The position numbers and the translations under genes were made by a program. Positions 1 to 9,981 of a stretch of DNA of 36,836 nt are shown here, in pieces. Origin of the DNA: Lentimicrobium sp. L6 (GTDB lineage Bacteria; Bacteroidota; Bacteroidia; Bacteroidales; UBA12170); assembly GCF_013166655.1 (NCBI RefSeq), contig NZ_JABKCA010000058.1, positions 1-36,836 of the forward strand, in the 5' to 3' direction. The notes beneath the pieces were generated by a model. The model was given only the letters and a program-made list of their open reading frames with translations. It was not told the DNA's origin and searched no databases. Position 1 is the stretch's first letter. Each line of letters starts with the position of its first letter.

Positions 1-3000
1 TAGTTCGTGACGCAAATAATTGCGAGACAAGCGAAACTATCAGCATTAGTCAACCAGATGCAGAACTAAGTTTCACAACAACTCTAACAGATGTACTTTG
101 CTATGGAAACGCAACAGGAGCCATAGAAATCACTGCAACAGGCGGAACAGCAAACTATGAATTCAGTATCGATAATGGAGGAAGTTTCCAAGCGGAAAAT
201 AGCTTTGATAACTTGTTAGCTGGTGAGTATGAAATTATAGTTCGAGATGCCAATAATTGCGAAACAAGTGAAACCATCAGCATCAATCAACCCGATGCAG
301 AATTAAGTTTCACAACAACCCTAAGCGATGTGCTTTGTTACGGCAACGCCACAGGAGCCATAGAAATCACAGCTACAGGCGGAACAGCAAACTATGAATA
401 CAGCATCGATAATGGAGGAAGTTTCCAAACGGAAAATACTTTCGAAAACCTATTAGCTGGAGATTATCAAATTGTAGTTCGTGACGCAAATAATTGCGAG
501 ACAAGCGAAACTATCAGCATTAGTCAACCTGATGCAGAACTAAGTTTCACAACAACCCTAACAGATGTGCTTTGCTATGGCAACGCCACAGGAGCCATAG
601 AAATTACAGCCACAGGCGGAACTACAGACTACGAATACAGCATTGATAATGGAGGAAGTTTCCAAGCGGGAAATAGCTTCGAAAACCTATTAGCTGGTGA
701 GTATGAAATTATAGTTCGAGATGCCAATAATTGCGAGACAAGTGAAACGGTAAACATCAGTCAACCAGATGCAGAATTAAGTTTCACCACCACCCTAAGC
801 GATGTGCTTTGTTATGGCAACGCCACAGGAGCCATAGAAATCACAGCCACAGGCGGAACAGCAAACTATGAATACAGCATCGATAATGGAGGAAGTTTCC
901 AAACGGAAAATAGCTTTGATAACTTGTTAGCTGGTGAGTATGAAATTATAGTTCGAGATGCCAATAATTGCGAGACAAGTGAAATGGTAAACATCAGTCA
1001 ACCAGATGCAGAATTAAGTTTCACCACCACCCTAACTGATGTGCTTTGCTACGGCAACGCAACAGGAGCCATAGAAATCGAAGCAATTGGAGGAACAGCA
1101 AACTACGAATACAGCATCGATAATGGAGGAAGTTTCCAAGCGGAAAATAGCTTCGAAAATCTGATGGCTGGAGATTATGAAATTATAGTTCGAGATGCCA
1201 ATAATTGTGAAACAAGTGAAACTATCAACATCAGTCAACCAGAAGCAGAACTCAGTTTCACCACAATGCTAACCGATGTCCTTTGCTACGGAAACGCAAC
1301 CGGAGCCATAGAAATCACCGCAACAGGCGGAACAACAAACTATGAATACAGCATCGATAATGGAGGAAGTTTCCAAACGGAAAACAGCTTCGAAAATCTA
1401 ATGGCTGGTGATTATGATATAGTTGTTCGAGACGCTAATAATTGCGAAACAAGTGAAACAGTAAACATCAGTCAACCAGATGCAGAATTAAGTTTCACCA
1501 CCACCCTAACTGATGTGCTTTGCTACGACAACGCAACAGGAGCCATAGAAATCACCCCAACAGGAGGAACAGCAAACTATGAATACAGCATCGATAATGG
1601 AGGAAGTTTTCAAGCGGATAATACTTTCGAAAACCTATTAGCTGGTGATTATGAAATAATAGTTCGTGACGCCAATAATTGCGAAACAAGTGAAACCATC
1701 AGCATCAATCAACCAGATGCAGAACTCAGTTTCACAACAACCCTAACAGTTGTCCTTTGCCACGGTAATGCCACAGGAGCCATAGAAATTACGGCAATAG
1801 GCGGAACAACAAACTATGAATACAGCATCGATAATGGAGGAAGTTTCCAAACAGAAAATAGCTTCGAAAATCTAATAGCTGGGGAATATGAAATTATAGT
1901 TCGTGACGCCAATAATTGTGAAACAAGTGAAACAGTAAACATCAGCCAACCTGATGCAGAATTGAGTTTCACAACAACAATAACAGATGTGCTTTGTTAT
2001 GGAGAAGCCACAGGAGGAATTGAAATCACAGCCACCGGAGGAGTCACAGATTATGAATATTCCATCGACAATGGAATCACTTTCCAAGCTTCAAATATTT
2101 TCACAGGATTATTAGCTGGCGATTATGAAGTCATGGTAAAAGATGCCAACCAATGTGAGTCAATGAGTATGGTGAGCATTTCAGAGCCATCCTCAGCTTT
2201 AAGTTTTACAACAACAATAACAGATGTCCTTTGTTTTGGAGAAGCCACCGGAGGAATTGAAATCACAGCTTCTGGAGGAGTCCCAACTTATGAATACTCC
2301 ATCGACAATGGAATCACTTTCCAAGCTTCAAATATCTTTACTGACTTAATCGCAGGAGATTATGAGGTGATGGTAAAAGATGCTAATACTTGTGAATCTA
2401 CGAGCATAGTGAGTATATCTCAGCCAGATGAATTAGCTATTTCTGCTGATTTAGTTCATATTGCTTGCTTTGGTGGGAACGATGGGGAAATACTGATTTC
2501 TGCAAACGGTGGAGCAGAGGAATATCTATACTCCATAAATAATGGACTGGATTATCAAAGCTCAGCTGTTTTTACAAACTTAATAGCTGGTGAATATTAT
2601 ATTCGAGTTCAAGATGCCAATGCATGTGAGGCTAGCTCTATTGAAGTACTCACAGAACCTGCTTCCTTGCCAAATGTTTCTTTTTCAGGTTTGGATAGTC
2701 ATTATTGCTCCTATGATGAGCCCATCGTCCTGATCGGTAATCAGGCTCCAATGGGAAGCTTCGAAGGTGAAGGTATAACAGATAATGGTGATGGAACGGC
2801 AGTGTTTAGTCCAGAATTGGCTGGCACAGGAAATCATGAAATTATATATTATTATACAAGTCCCGAGTCTTGTTATAATTTTGAGATGCAAAATACTAAT
2901 GTTTCTTCTCCAACGGTAGTTTCTATAGAAGGTCTTAGTGAACAATATTGTTTGAGCACAAATGATATTCTAATTACCGGAAGTGAAGCTCCTTTAGGTG

Positions 3001-5090
3001 AATTTAGTGGTGTTGGTGTTTTGGATAATGGAGATGGAACGGCATGGTTTAGTCCTTCCACTGTTGGTGTTGGAGCAGAACATATCATCATTTATCAATT
3101 TACGAATGCAGATGGATGTTTTTCAGAGGTCGAAGTTCAAACACAGGTTCTTGAGGATCCTATTGCCATACAGTCGGGTTTGTTAGCTCAGTATTGTATT
3201 GATTCCGATGATGTGATCATAACATCGAATGATCCTCAAGGAAATTTCTCGGGCCCTGGTATTATTGACCATAATAATGGAACAGCTACTTTCAGCCCTG
3301 CATTAGCAGGTGTAGGAGGTCCTTTCGAGATTGAATATGTATTGACCAATGATATTGGTTGTCAGGCAGAGGATATACAAGAAGTCACCATTTATGATTA
3401 TGTAGAGATTAGTTTTGCAGGTCTAGATGACTTTTATTGTTCAAATGCTAATAGTGCTATCATAACGGGTAGTGAGGCTCCATTTGGTTATTTTATGGGT
3501 TCTGGTGTGCTTGACCATGGAGATGGAACGGCAGAGCTTAATCTTTCTAGTCTGCCAGTTGGTGGCCCCTACGATTTGGCATATTATTATGCAGAAGCAG
3601 GGGGGTGTTTGAGTGAATATCATCAGGAGTTTACGGTTGTTGAGGCAGAGAGTATTGATTTTTCTGGTCTTGAGATGTCGTATTGTTTTGCAGATGAAAG
3701 CCATCAATTAATAGGCAGCCATGCTCCTGAATGCTATTTTGAAGGGAATGGAATAGAGCAGCAATCTGATGGCCATGCTTGGTATAATCCTAGCTTAGTG
3801 GTAGCTGGACAAGAGGATACCATCACTTACTTTTACGAAAATGAGAACCTATGTTTGAGTAATACTTCACATATTACTTTAGTGAAAGAAAATCCAGTTG
3901 CTGATTTTGAGTTTGCTTTATATCAGTGTAATGATGAAGCAGTATTTATGGATCAGTCTTATTCTGCCAATGGTGAAATTGTTTCCTGGAACTGGAACTT
4001 TGGGGATATCTACAGTGGGGCATTTAATAGCTCCAATTTGCAAAACCCAGTGCATGAGTTTGTGACGAATTATTCCACATTTAATGTTCATTTAGAAGTG
4101 GAGGATGAAACAGGATGTTATGGCGATATTATAAAGCCATTAATTCCATACTCTGGCGTTACCATTAAAGGAAATGTATCTAAAACCAATGGTGAGCCTA
4201 TTGAAAATGGTTATGTAGCCGCTTTCTATTTGTCAGATGGAGTTTTATCTGTTTTTGCTGACTTGACCCCAATACAAGAAAATGGAGATTATGAGTTTGT
4301 AGGAATGTCTTCTTGTGTGGAATATTTGATACATGCCATACCTAATAAATTCGATTATCCATTTGTATTTCCTCGTTGGTATGATGATGCTTTTTATTGG
4401 ACGGATGCAACAGTTGTTTCGGCTTCTTTAGGAAATGAAGTTATAGAGCATGTTGATTTTAGTTTAGTAGATCATAATCCAATACCCAATGGTCCTTCAA
4501 GTTTAAGTGGAGGCGTATATTACCTCAATTCTAAAGGAGAGCCGGTGAAGAATGTAGATGTCATACTTGAATTTGATGCTGCTGATGATAAAATAAGTGA
4601 TGTGAGCAGCTTTGAAATATCTGATGAGGAAGGGCAGTGGAAGTTTGATAATCTACCTAATGGTAATTTTAAGGTAAAAGTGGATATGCCTGGTTTAAGA
4701 ATGGATTCTGTATATCAGGTAAGTATCAGTACTTCGGAAACTCATATTACTGACCTGAACTATTATGTGGATACCTTAAGTGGGATTTATATAATCTTCA
4801 CAGGCATAGAGGAGCTTAATCAACAAGCTTTTGGTCAAATAGATATTTACCCCAACCCAAATGAAGGTCATTTTAGTTTAGCCGTGAGTAAGACAGCTGG
4901 ACAAGTGGAGATAGAAGAGATTGAAATTTGGGATTTAGAAGGTCGATTTATAAGAAGGATTTCTGCAAATTATAAAGGTCTTCAATATGAAGCTGAACTT
5001 GATTTCACCGAACTGCAATCCGGAGTGTATCTGTTAAAGCTAAAGAATGGAGAGGAGATAGGCTTGAGGAAGTTTGTCATACAGAAATAG
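1..5090 (+). CDS. Giant secreted SprB-repeat adhesin with type IX sorting domain (5' end outside window)
   Basis: The frame is open from the left edge (first full codon at position 3), so this is the C-terminal 1695 residues of a longer protein. Domains in order: SprB repeats of exactly 237 bp starting at 57, 294, 531 and so on to 2427, each with two Cys (in DVLCYG and NNCET contexts); five 81-82-residue modules, each with a G-L-x3-Y-C motif and most with G-D-G-T-A (about 2680-3890); a PKD-like domain with WNWNFGD (about 3897-4140); two carboxypeptidase-regulatory-like domains (about 4156-4460 and 4496-4760); and a type-A T9SS C-terminal domain beginning IDIYPNPNEG (about 4839) and ending LRKFVIQK. 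Family knowledge: such proteins cross the outer membrane by T9SS and act in adhesion or gliding. The ligand is unknown. Secretion by T9SS is a strong inference from the terminal domain; the adhesin role is less certain. Confidence 0.9.
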   Translation, partial: VRDANNCETSETISISQPDAELSFTTTLTDVLCYGNATGAIEITATGGTANYEFSIDNGGSFQAENSFDNLLAGEYEIIVRDANNCETSETISINQPDAELSFTTTLSDVLCYGNATGAIEITATGGTANYEYSIDNGGSFQTENTFENLLAGDYQIVVRDANNCETSETISISQPDAELSFTTTLTDVLCYGNATGAIEITATGGTTDYEYSIDNGGSFQAGNSFENLLAGEYEIIVRDANNCETSETVNISQPDAELSFTTTLSDVLCYGNATGAIEITATGGTANYEYSIDNGGSFQTENSFDNLLAGEYEIIVRDANNCETSEMVNISQPDAELSFTTTLTDVLCYGNATGAIEIEAIGGTANYEYSIDNGGSFQAENSFENLMAGDYEIIVRDANNCETSETINISQPEAELSFTTMLTDVLCYGNATGAIEITATGGTTNYEYSIDNGGSFQTENSFENLMAGDYDIVVRDANNCETSETVNISQPDAELSFTTTLTDVLCYDNATGAIEITPTGGTANYEYSIDNGGSFQADNTFENLLAGDYEIIVRDANNCETSETISINQPDAELSFTTTLTVVLCHGNATGAIEITAIGGTTNYEYSIDNGGSFQTENSFENLIAGEYEIIVRDANNCETSETVNISQPDAELSFTTTITDVLCYGEATGGIEITATGGVTDYEYSIDNGITFQASNIFTGLLAGDYEVMVKDANQCESMSMVSISEPSSALSFTTTITDVLCFGEATGGIEITASGGVPTYEYSIDNGITFQASNIFTDLIAGDYEVMVKDANTCESTSIVSISQPDELAISADLVHIACFGGNDGEILISANGGAEEYLYSINNGLDYQSSAVFTNLIAGEYYIRVQDANACEASSIEVLTEPASLPNVSFSGLDSHYCSYDEPIVLIGNQAPMGSFEGEGITDNGDGTAVFSPELAGTGNHEIIYYYTSPESCYNFEMQNTNVSSPTVVSIEGLSEQYCLSTNDILITGSEAPLGEFSGVGVLDNGDGTAWFSPSTVGVGAEHIIIYQFTNADGCFSEVEVQTQVLEDPIAIQSGLLAQYCIDSDDVIITSNDPQGNFSGPGIIDHNNGTATFSPALAGVGGPFEIEYVLTNDIGCQAEDIQEVTIYDYVEISFAGLDDFYCSNANSAIITGSEAPFGYFMGSGVLDHGDGTAELNLSSLPVGGPYDLAYYYAEAGGCLSEYHQEFTVVEAESIDFSGLEMSYCFADESHQLIGSHAPECYFEGNGIEQQSDGHAWYNPSLVVAGQEDTITYFYENENLCLSNTSHITLVKENPVADFEFALYQCNDEAVFMDQSYSANGEIVSWNWNFGDIYSGAFNSSNLQNPVHEFVTNYSTFNVHLEVEDETGCYGDIIKPLIPYSGVTIKGNVSKTNGEPIENGYVAAFYLSDGVLSVFADLTPIQENGDYEFVGMSSCVEYLIHAIPNKFDYPFVFPRWYDDAFYWTDATVVSASLGNEVIEHVDFSLVDHNPIPNGPSSLSGGVYYLNSKGEPVKNVDVILEFDAADDKISDVSSFEISDEEGQWKFDNLPNGNFKVKVDMPGLRMDSVYQVSISTSETHITDLNYYVDTLSGIYIIFTGIEELNQQAFGQIDIYPNPNEGHFSLAVSKTAGQVEIEEIEIWDLEGRFIRRISANYKGLQYEAELDFTELQSGVYLLKLKNGEEIGLRKFVIQK
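57..2663 (+). repeat. Eleven tandem 237-bp SprB-repeat units
   Basis: Units start at 57, 294, 531, 768, 1005, 1242, 1479, 1716, 1953, 2190 and 2427, every step exactly 237 bp (79 codons) with no indel. Units one to eight are nearly identical in DNA; the last three, especially the eleventh, are progressively diverged. A part-unit precedes position 57, so the array continues out of the window. Each encodes the SprB-like pattern: Cys-x-Gly, an ATGG turn, YEYSIDNG, an LLAGDYE strand and a second Cys. Confidence 0.9.
2679..3896 (+). repeat. Five diverged 81-82-codon modules inside the adhesin
   Basis: The G-L codons of successive modules begin at 2688, 2931, 3177, 3420 and 3666, spaced 243, 246, 243 and 246 bp. 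Shared features are G-L-x3-Y-C, a short strand ending in an I-T-G-S-E-A-P-like turn, F-x-G-x-G, D-N-G-D-G-T-A, F-S-P and a closing Cys. The fifth copy is the most degraded (DGHAWYNP). The DNA is much more diverged than in the SprB array, so this expansion is older. I do not recognise a named domain; an Ig-like beta-sandwich is a guess from the strand pattern. Confidence 0.7.
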
Positions 5091-5160: not shown

Positions 5161-5178
5161 ATCATGGTAAACCGTGAT
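5161..5178. promoter_or_regulatory. Operator-like inverted repeat, site 1
   Basis: ATCATGGT-AA-ACCGTGAT is an 18-bp inverted repeat with one T/C deviation. It begins 39 bp upstream of the TAACTTTG box at 5200. The same core recurs at 5379 and 5405. The position (centre near -43 from the likely transcription start) is typical of an activator overlapping the -33 region. The binding protein is unknown. Confidence 0.6.
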
Positions 5179-5199
5179 GAATTATTCGGCTGAAATATT

Positions 5200-5207
5200 T
5201 AACTTTG
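5200..5207 (+). promoter_or_regulatory. Bacteroidota-type -7 box TAACTTTG
   Basis: TAACTTTG fits the TAnnTTTG consensus. No clear TTTG -33 element lies 19-21 bp upstream; operator site 1 lies close to where it would be, which suggests activator dependence. It would start the short transcript that ends at the terminator near 5347. Confidence 0.55.
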
Positions 5208-5212
5208 TAATC

Positions 5213-5347
5213 CTTTAATTAATGTGCAATTATAATGTTGCTAAGGGAAAAGATGAGTGTGGACTGAGGAAGTTCATTGTATCATATAAACTTGCAAAGG
5301 TTTATACATGCGACAGTAAAAAGCTTGGGTGAGATCCAAGCTTTTTT
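5213..5347 (+). ncRNA. Candidate small terminated transcript (sRNA or tiny mRNA)
   Basis: Between the TAACTTTG box and a strong intrinsic terminator lie about 135 nt. Visible pairing: TATAATG (5231-5237) with CATTGTA, one GU pair; alternatively TGGACT (5259-5264) with AGTTCA; then ATAAAC with GTTTAT around an 8-nt loop; then the terminator. A 36-codon frame, ATG 5222 to TGA 5330, fills the transcript and ends in the terminator loop; its product contains GLRKF, recalling the end of the adhesin upstream, but nothing else supports translation. I match it to no known RNA family: the conserved cores of RNase P RNA, SRP RNA and tmRNA are absent. The boundaries are inferred from the promoter and terminator only. 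Confidence 0.45.
5318..5347 (+). terminator. Intrinsic terminator of the small transcript
   Basis: An 8-bp perfect stem AAGCTTGG/CCAAGCTT (5321-5328 with 5336-5343) with a 7-nt loop is followed by a run of T. It separates the short transcript from the downstream kinase operon. Confidence 0.8.
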
Positions 5348-5378
5348 GTTATCTCAATAATGTATCTAAGACTGAAAA

Positions 5379-5396
5379 CTCACGGTAAACCCTGAG
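5379..5396. promoter_or_regulatory. Operator-like inverted repeat, site 2
   Basis: CTCACGGT-AA-ACCCTGAG is the second copy of the 18-bp inverted repeat, with one mismatch between arms. It starts exactly 26 bp before site 3, so both would face nearly the same side of the helix. It is the distal site for the promoter at 5444. Confidence 0.55.
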
Positions 5397-5404
5397 AGAA
5401 GGAA

Positions 5405-5422
5405 ATCACGGTAAAGGGGGAG
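5405..5422. promoter_or_regulatory. Operator-like repeat, site 3 (one good half-site)
   Basis: ATCACGGT-AA-AGGGGGAG keeps the left half-site and central AA, but the right half is degenerate. It starts 39 bp before TACATTTG at 5444, the same spacing as site 1 to its own box. Confidence 0.5.
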
Positions 5423-5443
5423 TGCCATTATTTTTATTGGGTT

Positions 5444-5451
5444 TACATTTG
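5444..5451 (+). promoter_or_regulatory. -7 box TACATTTG of the small-protein/sensor-kinase operon
   Basis: TACATTTG matches TAnnTTTG and lies 21 bp before the ATG at 5473, giving a leader of about 15 nt. No convincing -33 element is present, and sites 2 and 3 lie directly upstream, consistent with an activated promoter. Confidence 0.55.
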
Positions 5452-5472: not shown

Positions 5473-5721
5473 ATGATTATGGCGCTCACTATTATATATT
5501 TGTTAAATAGAACTTTAGGAAGGGCCATGGAAGGGTACAATGTTCAGCTTCTATGGCTTTGTGAAGGCGATAAGCCTATTGTATTTGAGTCCTACTCTAA
5601 TCATTTAGGGCAAGCTATCGTTTCGCATCCATTCCATGGAAAGGTTAAGATTCTAGTCGATGGTGAAGATTATGGATTTATGGAAACCCCAGGAGTGCAT
5701 ACTGTTATTATGGAAGAATAA
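5473..5721 (+). CDS. Hypothetical 82-residue protein leading the sensor-kinase operon
   Basis: I do not recognise this protein. It has no convincing signal peptide; the N-terminal hydrophobic stretch (ALTIIYLL) is short and followed by Arg. Alternating strands, a Gly-Gln-Ala turn near the middle and VKILVDGEDYG near the end suggest a small beta-sandwich, perhaps related to carboxypeptidase-regulatory-like domains, but that is only a topology guess. The start could be the ATG at 5473 or 5479. It sits just downstream of an operator-controlled promoter and 63 bp before the sensor kinase, with no terminator between, so co-transcription is likely. A regulatory partner or substrate of the kinase pathway is possible but unproven. 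Confidence 0.55.
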   Translation: MIMALTIIYLLNRTLGRAMEGYNVQLLWLCEGDKPIVFESYSNHLGQAIVSHPFHGKVKILVDGEDYGFMETPGVHTVIMEE

Positions 5722-5784: not shown

Positions 5785-8700
5785 ATGCATCCTCTGATTA
5801 AGTATATTCTTCTGGTTTGTATTGGCTTACAAAGTATATTTTTATATGCTCAGGAGGCACAGTATTTCCGTGAAGGTTATACCGTTAAAAAAGATTTGTA
5901 CTCAAAGTTTGATAATTATACTACGGAGGATGGTTTGATTAGTGAAGATGTAAAATTAATACTGCAAGATAAACAGGGTTATATGTGGTTTGGCACATCT
6001 GAAGGACTTAGTAAATACGATGGTTATGATTTCACCAATTATCAAAATAATCCTAATGACAGCTCTTCTATATCTGACAATTTTATCACAGCTATTGAAG
6101 AAGATATTTATGGTGATTTATGGATAGGAACTAAAAATGGACTGAATAAACTCAACCGATCTGAAGGGTCTTTTTATAGATTTTATGCAGAGACTGGAGA
6201 GAAAAATGCTTTGCAAAATAACTATATCAGTGATTTGTTATCAGACTCCTCAGGAGTTTTGTGGATAGATACTTATGAGGGCTATCTTCACAAATTTAAT
6301 ATAGAGGATTCTACTCTTAAGTTTTACAAGCATCCTCCATCTCAAAATGACATTTATTTTATACATAGGTTATTCAGAGATGGAAATAAGATTTGGGTTT
6401 GTTATAAAAATAAAACCCAGATTTTTTATATTAAAGAAGAGAAGTTTGAATTATTTGAAGATCGGGATATTAAGTTGGTTAATATGGGGAATAATAGTTG
6501 GTTTCATTCTTATTCATCTGTTTTAAAGGATAATAACGGGACTTATTATATCGGAAATGTCCATAGTAAAACGCTTATTTATGAACCCCAAAAACAAATA
6601 TTAAGAAATTTGCCGTTTGCATCTATATATTATATGCTAAAGGGTACGAATAATCAAATATGGTTGGGAGGCTATACTCTTGGCCTAGTTCAGTATGATA
6701 TTAGTAAAAACAAATTCACCCAATATAAGCATACTGATGATAATCCATATTCAATCGCGGATAAAAGAGTATGGGATATCCTAGAAGACAAAAGAGGAAA
6801 TATTTGGATAGCGACTCCCTCAGGGGTCTCTAAATTAAGCCCACAAAAACAGGCCTTTCAACACATTAGGCATATTAGTAATGTTGAGGCATCCATCATT
6901 GATAATGATGTAAAAGATGTGATTCAAACTAATGACAGTAATATTTGGGTTGCTACTTCTAATGGTATTAGTGTTTTGAATAAGAACAAGAATAGTGTTA
7001 AAACATATCGACATGATCCCCAAAACAAAGAAGGTTTACTAAATGATAAAATTAAATGTCTGTATCAGGATAAGGAGGAGACGATCTGGATAGGTGGTTG
7101 GACAGGTCAGGGGATGGATTTTTTAAGGAACGGTGAAGAAGAATTCAAGCACTACTCCATCTCGGAAAAAAAATTCAATGGATATGATTGGTATGTCGAT
7201 TTTGCAGAAGCAAATGATGAGCTCTTTGTAGGCTTTTTTGGAGCAACATCACTTGCGAAATTTGACAGGAATAGTTTAGAGTTATATGATTCCTTTAATA
7301 AAATTGGAATTAACACTAAAACGGATGTGCCAATTATTCAATCGTATAAAAATTATCTTTTTTCTCTAAATTTCGCCTTTCTCAATTTTGACAAAAATAA
7401 GCATGGGGCATATAGAGACCTTAATGTTAATAAGAATATGTTAAATGCAAATTCGGTGCATTTTAAGACAATTAATCTAGATAAAACGGAAAGACCAAAT
7501 GGATATGAGATTATCAATGGAAATTTATTTGCATATACTAATTTCAACCTTTGGACCTTTGATGACATTAATGAGACCTTTACTAAAAACTTAAGAATAA
7601 ATCAGGAAGTTAACAGCATTGAAAAAGCAAAAGAGGAGGACTGTATTTGGTTAGCCAATGAAAACAGACTGAAAAAGGTTAAGTTAGGACTTCAAGATCG
7701 TGAACTTAAAAGTATCAACCTTCCTTCAGAGATTACCGATTTATATTCATCTGATGATACTATTTATATTGGAACACAAAAGGGTCTGTATTTTGTAGCA
7801 GAATCAAAACTACAGAATTACAATGATCTTGTTCAGATAAAGGGGTTTGAGTCCACGAAAATTAATGAGATTATTATCAATAAAAATCGCTTAATCCATG
7901 TCTCCTCAGATAATGGTTTGTATATTTTGAATCAAAACAAAACCATAAAGAATTACCTAACAGCTGAGAATTCTGAACTCTCAAATGTAATTATTCACGA
8001 TATTTTCATAGATAAGCAGCAAAATTTTTGGATTGGAACACAAGAGGGGCTTAATTTGTATGATGAGGAAGGTGGTAATTTTCAATCATGGTTTCATGAT
8101 GAAATGGATCCCCATTCAATTTCAGGTAATACCATCTATTCCATAACGGAAAGAGATGATGGCTTATATCTGGGAACAAACTGCGGTTATAGTATATTCA
8201 ATCTAAAATCAAATTCCTTTATCAGAAAATTTTCTGCCGATGAGAATAGTGTCCAGACTAGCTTAACCACTTGCTTGTTATCAGATTCCAAAGACAATAT
8301 TTGGATTGGAAATGGGTCAAATGGGTATAGCGTTGACTATCTAAATACCGCAACAAATACGATTAAACACTATCATGATTTACCCTACGATTCTGCTTCC
8401 TACAAAGGGAAGGAAGCCAATTTTGTTTTTGAAGATAGCCAAAATAATATATGGATAGGTACAGATAAAGGTTTGAATAAATTCGATAGAAAAACAGAGA
8501 CATTTAAATTGTTTTCTAAAGAAAATGGTATGCCTACTTCAGAAGTACTGGCGATGGAAGAAGATGATAAAGGGGTTTATTGGTTAGGCTCGAATGAGGG
8601 TCTTATAAAATTTAATGAGGAAGCTAATTCATTCAAACAATTCAGAACAAGGGATGGTATATCATCCAATACTTATAGCCAAAAGGCATCGGCTAAATTA

Positions 8701-9981
8701 TATTCAGGGGAGTTGGTCTTTGGTTCCAGAAAAGGACTCACTGTCTTCCACCCCGATAGCATATATCCAAGCCCAATCTTGCCCAATCCTGTATTATCAA
8801 AGATGTATGTTTTCGATAGCTTAGCATTCGATGATTTATCAAATATCTCTGATGTGAAGCTTAGTGATGAACAAAATAACTTCACCATAGAGTTTTCAGT
8901 TTTAGATTATATCAATCCAGCAAAAAATGAATACTCCTATCGGTTGAAGGGGTATGATAAAGATTGGATAACTACCTCTTATACCAATAGAAAAGCAAAA
9001 TATACTGACTTGCCCTATGGTAAGTATACTTTTCAATTATTGGCTAGCAATCAGGATGGTTTATGGACAGAGAAGCCTATTGAACTCGAAATAAGAATTA
9101 TCCCTCCATTGTATAAAACCACAATAGCCTATGTTTTTTATATTTTAGTATTTATATTGAGTTCCTTCCTCTATGGAAACTTTAGGATAAGAAGAATAAA
9201 GAAGCATAATAAACAATTGGAGGAAACTATTCAATTAAGAACGGAAGAAATTGTCTCTCAAAGTGAGGCTTTAGGTGAGCAAAAAATAAGTGAATTCATT
9301 AAAGAAAGTAAACTAGAAATTGCTCAGCAAAGAATGATTGTGCAAGAAGAGGAGAGAAGACGGATTTCTCGTGAACTACATGATGGCGTTGGTGGCCATC
9401 TTACGGGGATTAAATTGTTTTTAGAGAATATTCAAGAAGAGGAGGAGTCTCACGATTTAAACCTTCTTTTGGAGGATGTAAAACGACTTTATCAGGAAGT
9501 CAGGAATCTTTCCCACGATTTATTGCCGCCTGAGTTTGAAGAAACATCTGTAAAGGAAGTACTCAAGGTTTATGTGGAGCAATATATGTTGCGTACAAAT
9601 GTAGATATCGTTTTGTCTTTCCATCCCAAAAACCAGTGGGATAAAGTAGAACAGGTAGCTCAAGTCGATATTTATAGAACAATACAAGAACTATTGCAAA
9701 ATGCCATAAAACATGCCGATGCTAGCGAAATTGAAATTGAAGTCACACGTCATGAAGATTATATTGGAATAATGGTAGAGGATAATGGTTCGGGAATGGA
9801 TGTAAAGGCAGAGCATAATGGTAGTGGTTTGAGAAACCTGAGAAAAAGATTAGAATTACTCGGAGGGAAGGTTTTTATCGATAGCAAATTAAAAAGAGGT
9901 ACTATTGTGAATATTGAAATTCCTAATGTGTTTCATGAGGATGAAATTGAGAATTCATACCCGCTTTTGTCTAAATCATAA
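5785..9981 (+). CDS. Two-component sensor histidine kinase with Reg_prop propellers and Y_Y_Y domain
   Basis: Residues 1-22 form a signal peptide ending LYAQ. About 900 residues of Reg_prop blades follow (repeated W-I/F-G-T-x-x-G-L motifs, enough for two propellers), then a Y_Y_Y domain (about 1000-1108, with YRLKGYDKDW at 1052), one membrane helix (1112-1131), a coiled coil, a HisKA_3 domain with the phospho-acceptor His1199 in RELHDGVG, and a HATPase_c domain (N box around Asn1306, DNGSG at 1333-1337, GSGL at 1346-1349). Family knowledge: the periplasmic propeller senses a ligand, often a glycan, and the cytoplasmic kinase signals to a NarL/LuxR-type regulator. There is no receiver or AraC domain in the chain and no response regulator gene in the window, so the partner is elsewhere. 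The ligand is not predictable here. Confidence 0.93.
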   Translation: MHPLIKYILLVCIGLQSIFLYAQEAQYFREGYTVKKDLYSKFDNYTTEDGLISEDVKLILQDKQGYMWFGTSEGLSKYDGYDFTNYQNNPNDSSSISDNFITAIEEDIYGDLWIGTKNGLNKLNRSEGSFYRFYAETGEKNALQNNYISDLLSDSSGVLWIDTYEGYLHKFNIEDSTLKFYKHPPSQNDIYFIHRLFRDGNKIWVCYKNKTQIFYIKEEKFELFEDRDIKLVNMGNNSWFHSYSSVLKDNNGTYYIGNVHSKTLIYEPQKQILRNLPFASIYYMLKGTNNQIWLGGYTLGLVQYDISKNKFTQYKHTDDNPYSIADKRVWDILEDKRGNIWIATPSGVSKLSPQKQAFQHIRHISNVEASIIDNDVKDVIQTNDSNIWVATSNGISVLNKNKNSVKTYRHDPQNKEGLLNDKIKCLYQDKEETIWIGGWTGQGMDFLRNGEEEFKHYSISEKKFNGYDWYVDFAEANDELFVGFFGATSLAKFDRNSLELYDSFNKIGINTKTDVPIIQSYKNYLFSLNFAFLNFDKNKHGAYRDLNVNKNMLNANSVHFKTINLDKTERPNGYEIINGNLFAYTNFNLWTFDDINETFTKNLRINQEVNSIEKAKEEDCIWLANENRLKKVKLGLQDRELKSINLPSEITDLYSSDDTIYIGTQKGLYFVAESKLQNYNDLVQIKGFESTKINEIIINKNRLIHVSSDNGLYILNQNKTIKNYLTAENSELSNVIIHDIFIDKQQNFWIGTQEGLNLYDEEGGNFQSWFHDEMDPHSISGNTIYSITERDDGLYLGTNCGYSIFNLKSNSFIRKFSADENSVQTSLTTCLLSDSKDNIWIGNGSNGYSVDYLNTATNTIKHYHDLPYDSASYKGKEANFVFEDSQNNIWIGTDKGLNKFDRKTETFKLFSKENGMPTSEVLAMEEDDKGVYWLGSNEGLIKFNEEANSFKQFRTRDGISSNTYSQKASAKLYSGELVFGSRKGLTVFHPDSIYPSPILPNPVLSKMYVFDSLAFDDLSNISDVKLSDEQNNFTIEFSVLDYINPAKNEYSYRLKGYDKDWITTSYTNRKAKYTDLPYGKYTFQLLASNQDGLWTEKPIELEIRIIPPLYKTTIAYVFYILVFILSSFLYGNFRIRRIKKHNKQLEETIQLRTEEIVSQSEALGEQKISEFIKESKLEIAQQRMIVQEEERRRISRELHDGVGGHLTGIKLFLENIQEEEESHDLNLLLEDVKRLYQEVRNLSHDLLPPEFEETSVKEVLKVYVEQYMLRTNVDIVLSFHPKNQWDKVEQVAQVDIYRTIQELLQNAIKHADASEIEIEVTRHEDYIGIMVEDNGSGMDVKAEHNGSGLRNLRKRLELLGGKVFIDSKLKRGTIVNIEIPNVFHEDEIENSYPLLSKS

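Follow-up and report, generated by a model that had tools for sequence, protein, structure and literature searches.

The window, a stretch of 36,836 nucleotides from the genome of Lentimicrobium sp. L6 (G000), opens on its forward strand with the 3′ part (positions 1 to 5090) of a surface adhesin gene of 5,974 codons, the product of which carries DUF285 domains, SprB repeats, and a T9SS sorting tail. The end of this giant gene at 5090 is separated by 382 bp from the start, at 5473, of a gene for an 82-aa protein, and this interval holds three sites that are the subject of this study. It also holds a small transcript (5212 to 5347, +; predicted start) with an intrinsic terminator at about 5318 to 5347, for which the fold z score was −4.2. 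The 82-aa protein (5473 to 5721, +), for which no match was found in Pfam or NCBIfam, is encoded by the first gene of the transcript from promoter P2, and a sensor kinase gene follows (5785 to 9981, +), encoding a Reg_prop propeller together with Y_Y_Y, HisKA_3, and HATPase_c domains.

Site 1 (ATCATGGTAAACCGTGAT; 5161 to 5178, +) is a strong inverted repeat and the sole site of promoter P1, whose box, TAACTTTG (5200 to 5207, +), starts 39 bp after the start of the site. Promoter P2 has two sites. The distal one, site 2 or site A of P2 (CTCACGGTAAACCCTGAG; 5379 to 5396, +), is again a strong inverted repeat, and the proximal one, site 3 or site B (ATCACGGTAAAGGGGGAG; 5405 to 5422, +), has kept the left half TCACGG next to a degenerate right half; from the start of site 3 to that of the P2 box, TACATTTG (5444 to 5451, +), the distance is again 39 bp. 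The initial annotation of this DNA had described three copies of one inverted repeat. This is true of sites 1 and 2, in each of which TCAYGG recurs in inverted orientation after a 4-bp spacer, but site 3 preserves only the left half of the motif (TCACGGTAAAGG). Its sequence departs from TCAYGGTAAACC at 2 of 12 bases, and its two halves do not pair. The reported geometry proved exact when the coordinates were rechecked, both for the 39 bp from site start to box start at sites 1 and 3 and for the 26 bp between sites 2 and 3. Likewise, when the sequence was read by eye, no TTG was seen about 21 bp before either the P1 or the P2 box, in agreement with the claim that both promoters lack a good −33 element; P2 has one TTG, 5 to 7 bp before its box. 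In F. psychrophilum, TAnnTTTG occupies positions −12 to −5 (PMC9723704), and site B is therefore predicted to span −51 to −34. Its centre would lie at −42.5, as would that of site 1, and the centre of site A would lie at −68.5.

The window is identical to contig C58 over the 18 kb compared, and to the reverse of contig C5 over 16.8 kb except for 9 bases in the first 50; these mismatches, located at the end of C58 inside the repeat-rich adhesin gene, are likely an assembly effect. Matches on C58 were counted as duplicates of those on C5. On the latter, the adhesin gene starts 12.8 kb before the window, behind a promoter, P0, that carries the same element and had escaped the initial annotation. 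Further upstream of the adhesin gene lie three NarL-type regulator genes (RR-a, RR-c, and RR-b) and a TPR kinase gene. Two of these regulators (C5:49940-50590 and C5:53538-54182) are 85% identical to each other, with the TPR kinase and the third regulator between them, and their genes precede the window start by about 13 to 17 kb (−17345 to −13103 in window coordinates), across the adhesin gene. The kinase of the window had been proposed to work with an unlinked partner. This was not borne out, as the NarL-type regulator genes sit just upstream of the adhesin gene that ends in the window.

When the G000 genome was searched with the site only, two further places were found, C5:49787 and C29:51372; the matches retained were those within 1 mismatch plus a perfect degenerate palindrome at C29. 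At P0 (C5:49787, before the giant adhesin gene), a palindrome is followed 26 bp on by ATCACGGAAAAGGGGGAG and 39 bp further by the box TATTTTTG. This ATCACGGAAAAGGGGGAG, which is site B of P0, equals site 3 with one mismatch and is the best other match to site 3 in the genome. P3 (C29) has a kinase-regulator pair on one side and, on the other, a frame of 1,061 codons with homology to surface proteins elsewhere; here a perfect palindrome precedes a weaker site by 26 bp, and the box TACATTTG comes 39 bp after the latter. Both promoters have the same plan, a strong palindrome A, a weaker site B 26 bp on, and a box 39 bp after B.

We then compared these counts with chance. The 12-mer yielded 4 non-redundant matches in G000 (three promoter sites and one in coding sequence) versus about 1.0 expected, which by itself is weak evidence. 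The extended motif TCACGGTAAACCGTGA gave three non-redundant matches within 1 mismatch versus 0.06 expected, so that the genome-wide motif search suggested in the initial annotation placed it above chance. With up to 3 mismatches the 16-mer fell to background, there being 26 matches genome-wide and 26 in the reversed-pattern control, and 9 of 10 other match loci inspected in G000 and G010 were inside an open frame of at least 90 codons, the tenth (C102) being outside. A site-plus-box pattern matched 131 times within 3 mismatches versus 91 in the control, with three matches at 0 mismatches and one at 1 after removal of the duplicate contig; this pattern was written from those same four promoters and hence is no independent test. 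TAnnTTTG occurs at a frequency of 6.5e-4 to 1.0e-3 per position, and the chance that one offset among 41 is common to the four G000 promoters is about 1e-11, a value that includes P1 and P2, which were noticed because of their common offset. For P0 and P3 alone, found afterwards, the chance is about 1e-6 (the square of the box frequency). An accidental association with promoters would be expected if the palindromes were a dispersed repeat element, and several tandem CTCACGG(A/T)4CCGTGAG copies do exist in another genome, G529. In G000, however, the strong matches (16-mer with at most 1 mismatch, two-site pattern, and promoter model) are these four promoters, each of which keeps the fixed distance to its box and has a counterpart in a second species, and we consider a dispersed repeat most improbable.

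That second species, G002, belongs to the same genus and encodes a regulator 83% identical to RR-b as well as a kinase 54% identical to that of the window and found in the same context. All four promoters, P0 to P3, are present there in matching gene contexts: P0 precedes the adhesin gene; P1, the small RNA, P2, a homolog of the 82-aa protein (51% identical, in the same place), and the kinase follow the adhesin 3′ end in the order seen in the window; and P3 is beside a C29-type regulator (85% identical). The two ends of the G002 adhesin gene lie on two contigs, and their joining is inferred. The box starts 39 bp after the proximal site at 4 of 4 promoters, and the A-to-B distances are 25 bp (P0), 23 bp (P2), and 26 bp (P3). 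The P1 site, TTCATGGTATACCATGAA, has the same place and spacing as site 1, with the box TAGTTTTG at 39, and P2 carries CTCAGGGTAAACCGTGAG as the counterpart of site 2 and the box TACCTTTG at 39. Conservation in relatives had been named as a check on the element, and G002, which keeps the regulator, keeps the sites too. In the other nine genomes of the genus (74 to 99% complete), a search for the regulator at E 1e-40 found nothing, and one for the kinase at E 1e-120 yielded a single match, 32% identical, in G007; the regulator together with a close kinase ortholog is confined to 2 of the 11 genus genomes. G002 has a single regulator at the adhesin locus, and a regulator flanks the adhesin gene in both species; the two regulators of G000 versus the one of G002 suggest a duplication around an insertion.

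The small transcript is conserved in G002 as well, between P1 and P2 (L140), where none of 1,000 shuffles aligned as well locally. The conserved core reads GCTAAGG..GATGAGT......TGAGGA, and the putative RNA has its own terminator. A 36-codon ORF in the transcript was discarded as a candidate gene, for it is not kept in G002 as judged by eye, and the transcript is probably a non-coding small RNA. Three Rfam matches (E 0.15 to 0.51) were all far below the gathering scores and were treated as chance. Pairing of the small RNA with the leaders of the adhesin, 82-aa protein, kinase, C29, and regulator genes in both species was no better than that of shuffles in 10 of 10 cases.

To what extent the 39-bp spacing depends on how promoters were found can be judged from seven promoters discovered without using the box, namely, P0 and P3 of G000, P0 to P3 of G002, and one in G272, a member of another family of the order. 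P0 and P3 of G000 came from the site search, those of G002 via regulator orthologs, P1 and P2 of G002 via the kinase ortholog with the sites picked by eye, and the G272 promoter from the two-site pattern. TAnnTTTG is at exactly 39 in six of the seven, and GAnnTTTG is at 39 in the seventh. Over the three genomes, the distance from proximal site start to box is 39 bp at 9 of 9 promoters, the box being exact at 8 and GAnnTTTG at 1. Clear inverted symmetry of the proximal site is limited to P1, and two-site promoters show it at the distal site instead. The two-site pattern, searched without a box in 295 genomes of the order, had three non-redundant matches outside open frames in G000; elsewhere, 24 of 25 matches were dropped as lying inside open frames of at least 100 codons, and G272 was left. 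Its sites, 26 bp apart and with GAATTTTG at 39, are located between a kinase-regulator pair and a gene for a protein with a T9SS tail.

These data indicated that the sites constitute a genuine conserved regulatory element, and its principle, NarL-type two-site activation, is known. Judging from the sequences compared, they probably serve as operators at which a NarL/FixJ-type response regulator activates transcription. A regulator dimer occupying the 18-bp palindrome TCAYGG-N4-CCRTGA, or a weaker version of it, would have a fixed place centred at −42.5 (about −51 to −34), compensating there for the missing −33 element and helping RNA polymerase at the TAnnTTTG box. P1, which has one strong palindrome at the B place and no A, suggests that no second site is needed when B is strong. 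Where two sites are present, the weak proximal site B would be aided by the strong palindrome A at about −68.5. Against this reading, P1 is without site A and the A-to-B distance varies (26, 25, or 23 bp). The right half of site B differs between promoters, and B may therefore not be an inverted repeat. In G000 the predicted regulon would comprise the giant SprB-repeat adhesin (P0), the small RNA (P1), the 82-aa protein plus propeller kinase (P2), and, from P3, the C29 surface protein, encoded next to a kinase-regulator pair of its own. With P2 driving it, the sensor kinase would come under its own regulator, giving positive feedback on sensing. The idea that one regulator serves both the small transcript and the 82-aa protein/kinase operon gained support, since the same distance recurs at P0, at C29, and in G002. 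The sequences, their geometry, their conservation, and the gene contexts are observations, whereas the identity of the bound regulator, its activating role, its phosphorylation by the propeller kinase, and the transcription start points are inferred.

The layout resembles that of characterized activator promoters. The ComA box of Bacillus subtilis is likewise a hexamer-N4-hexamer inverted repeat ending in GG-N4-CC, and at ComA promoters this repeat is described (PMC4797271) as lying upstream of a second, more degenerate site adjoining the core promoter. Sites A and the P1 sites have the same 6-bp-N4-6-bp inverted repeat. The half-site, however, is TCAYGG here rather than TTGCGG of ComA, and we rejected the identification of the element as a ComA box on this ground. 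At ComA promoters, the second site repeats directly with a 5-nt spacer; the right half of B, degenerate and different between promoter types when compared by eye, agrees poorly with either kind of repeat. Also unlike ComA, the promoters here are of the Bacteroidota type and the main targets are surface proteins. The likeness to E. coli ogt is looser: two NarL-family sites are upstream of one start there, with the proximal one at −44.5 (PMC7419079), but they are 7-2-7 sites with the distal one at −77.5, in contrast to the 6-4-6 sites at about −42.5 and −68.5 here. Relative to Bacteroides-type TAnnTTTG promoters, the box sequence and the inferred start position are alike (PMC9723704), and the difference is that an activator site at a fixed distance stands in for the −33 element.

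NarL-family regulators are able to repress as well as to activate. A protein bound at these sites could block the polymerase, so that the sites would be repressor operators or act both ways, and site B does adjoin the −33 region. Nevertheless, the invariant 39 bp, the missing −33 element, and the strong-distal/weak-proximal layout agree with those described for ComA and NarL activator promoters (PMC4797271 and PMC7419079), and we regard a repressor or dual role as quite improbable. Activation by a NarL-type regulator was retained as the preferred reading.

A second comparison concerned FimS/FimR of Porphyromonas gingivalis, in which a TPR sensor kinase and a response regulator activate surface-structure genes; no motif for FimR is stated in the parts of PMC11053733 and PMC1974823 consulted. 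Four TPR kinases, those encoded at C5, C29, G002 contig C270, and G272, match the NCBIfam FimS model with scores of 96.4, 84.6, 65.3, and 109 bits versus a cut-off of 600, and the identification of the element with the FimS/FimR system was rejected because these scores fall far below that cut-off. Unlike FimS, the window's own kinase is a propeller rather than a TPR protein, and it is absent from the list of FimS matches. It is presumed to be the partner of the NarL-type regulators. None of six exact spellings of the palindrome was matched in 5.39 million PMC papers, and in the published literature searched we found no account of the motif, of a regulator clade reading it, or of its invariant place in Bacteroidota promoters, nor a printed cis-code for Bacteroidota NarL-type regulators.

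Candidate readers were compared next. Response_reg and GerE domains are present in RR-a, RR-b, RR-c, and the regulators of C29, G272, G002 contig C270, G046, G647, and G529, and the solved-structure relatives of RR-b are VraR, RcsB, and NarL. Between C5-type and C29-type regulators, the DNA-binding domains are 50 to 61% identical (6 comparisons) and the receivers 24 to 29%, which is the background level; the DNA-binding identities of controls are 26 to 47% (12 rows), and the site-linked pairs are only just higher. In a 20-row tree, 12 aligned controls split off with 100/99 support and RR-c is on a long branch, and the site-linked regulators do not form one resolved clade. A recognition signature, T[IV]E[ST][HY]R.[NI]L[FL].K[FL].VKN..GL, occurs in nine regulators tied to the sites (RR-a, RR-b, C29, two of G002, G272, G046, G647, and G529) and was written from the first seven; the G647 and G529 regulators were found from DNA alone and fit it. 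The signature is not in RR-c of the C5 cluster, nor in any of 15 control relatives, which were matches of the C29 regulator and not a random sample; no site better than 12 of 16 bases was found at the 15 control loci. The complete element is absent upstream of both regulator genes: at the RR-a locus no site match above 12/16 was found, and at the RR-b locus there is a 13/16 site without a box at 39 or 65. These absences weigh against the preferred reading, as do the RR-c sequence, the narrow margin in DNA-binding identity, the unresolved tree, and the confinement of regulator and kinase to 2 of 11 genus genomes.

By association, the domain comparisons and the signature back the NarL/LuxR-type reader proposed in the initial annotation. 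The sites could instead be read by another transcription factor, the NarL-type regulators being merely neighbours. Binding of the regulators to the sites is predicted from sequence, RR-c has no signature, and the two promoters of G046, the three of G438, and that of G681 have no signature regulator in the stretch examined, all of which would fit such a factor. It would leave unexplained why the signature accompanies the motif in the nine regulators and in 0 of the 15 controls, why the DNA-binding domains are conserved beyond the receivers, and why the regulator expected in G046 is present elsewhere in that genome. The last was predicted beforehand and then found by homology (43% identity, E 1.4e-55; the next best there, 1.9e-29). 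Weighing both sides, we judge another factor to be unlikely, and a NarL-type reader remains our preferred reading.

Wider searches produced further candidates. A promoter model (R1), applied to sequence only in 393 genomes of the order, identified two promoters in G046 (28.1 and 26.4 bits), each ahead of a start codon; behind one of the two lie homologs of the C29 target. Two further matches above 24 bits in other genomes were coding, and matches in G325 and G249 were dropped, being in coding frames. In all, 102 of the 393 genomes matched at E 0.05, with about 20 matches expected, and most of the model matches below 24 bits look like chance. The model contains the spacing, so its matches are no independent evidence on spacing. 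A second model (R2), run on 395 genomes of the class, gave 23 matches outside G000, of which 10 were in an open frame, 12 outside, and 1 (L202) at a contig end. The G647 match had been scored as in an open frame; on inspection it is before a start codon, in the order TPR/HisKA_3 kinase, regulator, sites, and secreted protein, with its box one base off, at 38. Three promoters in G438 have TAnnTTTG at 39. In G529, one palindrome group is before a NarL-type regulator carrying the signature. In G681 (L235, 2059 to 4047), a two-site match is directly behind a TPR/HisKA_3 kinase gene, with no box at 39 or 65 and no signature regulator within the 8 kb examined, and, among the ten stretches examined, those of G586 and G662 had no kinase or regulator recognized by name in the frames listed. 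The class and order model matches, partly selected for spacing, are taken as leads. The order TPR kinase, regulator, sites, and surface or secreted protein is shared by C29, G002 contig C270, G272, and G647.

A broader reading may be put forward tentatively, as one we find possible and yet somewhat doubtful: that a NarL-type clade across Bacteroidota, marked by the signature, reads TCAYGG-N4-CCRTGA, takes over the role of the −33 element at an invariant position, and acts as a switch devoted to exported surface proteins of very large size, with the adhesin, the small RNA, and the sensor kinase coupled in a feedback loop at this locus. If true, it would reveal an unannotated regulon readable from DNA across the phylum. 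A set of motif, promoter position, and recognition-helix signature in which each predicts the others would allow orphan kinases, regulators, and surface proteins to be assigned to one another by sequence; the same set would permit a direct test of how an activator replaces the −33 element in Bacteroidota, and the element offers a candidate on-switch for a giant SprB-repeat adhesin plus a co-regulated small RNA.

Some features of the other genomes were seen in passing. In G438, L227, L228, and L229 each have a near-identical CNGGAAANCACTATTGTTTTT-type site with a box exactly 39 bp after the site start, and the three promoters are perhaps a separate multi-copy regulon. The tandem palindromes of G529 occur at several intergenic places (L230, L231, and L232). 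Behind one of the G046 promoters (L184, 1782 to 5231, reverse strand), three reading frames together hold the homolog of the C29 surface protein, and its pieces were compared separately.
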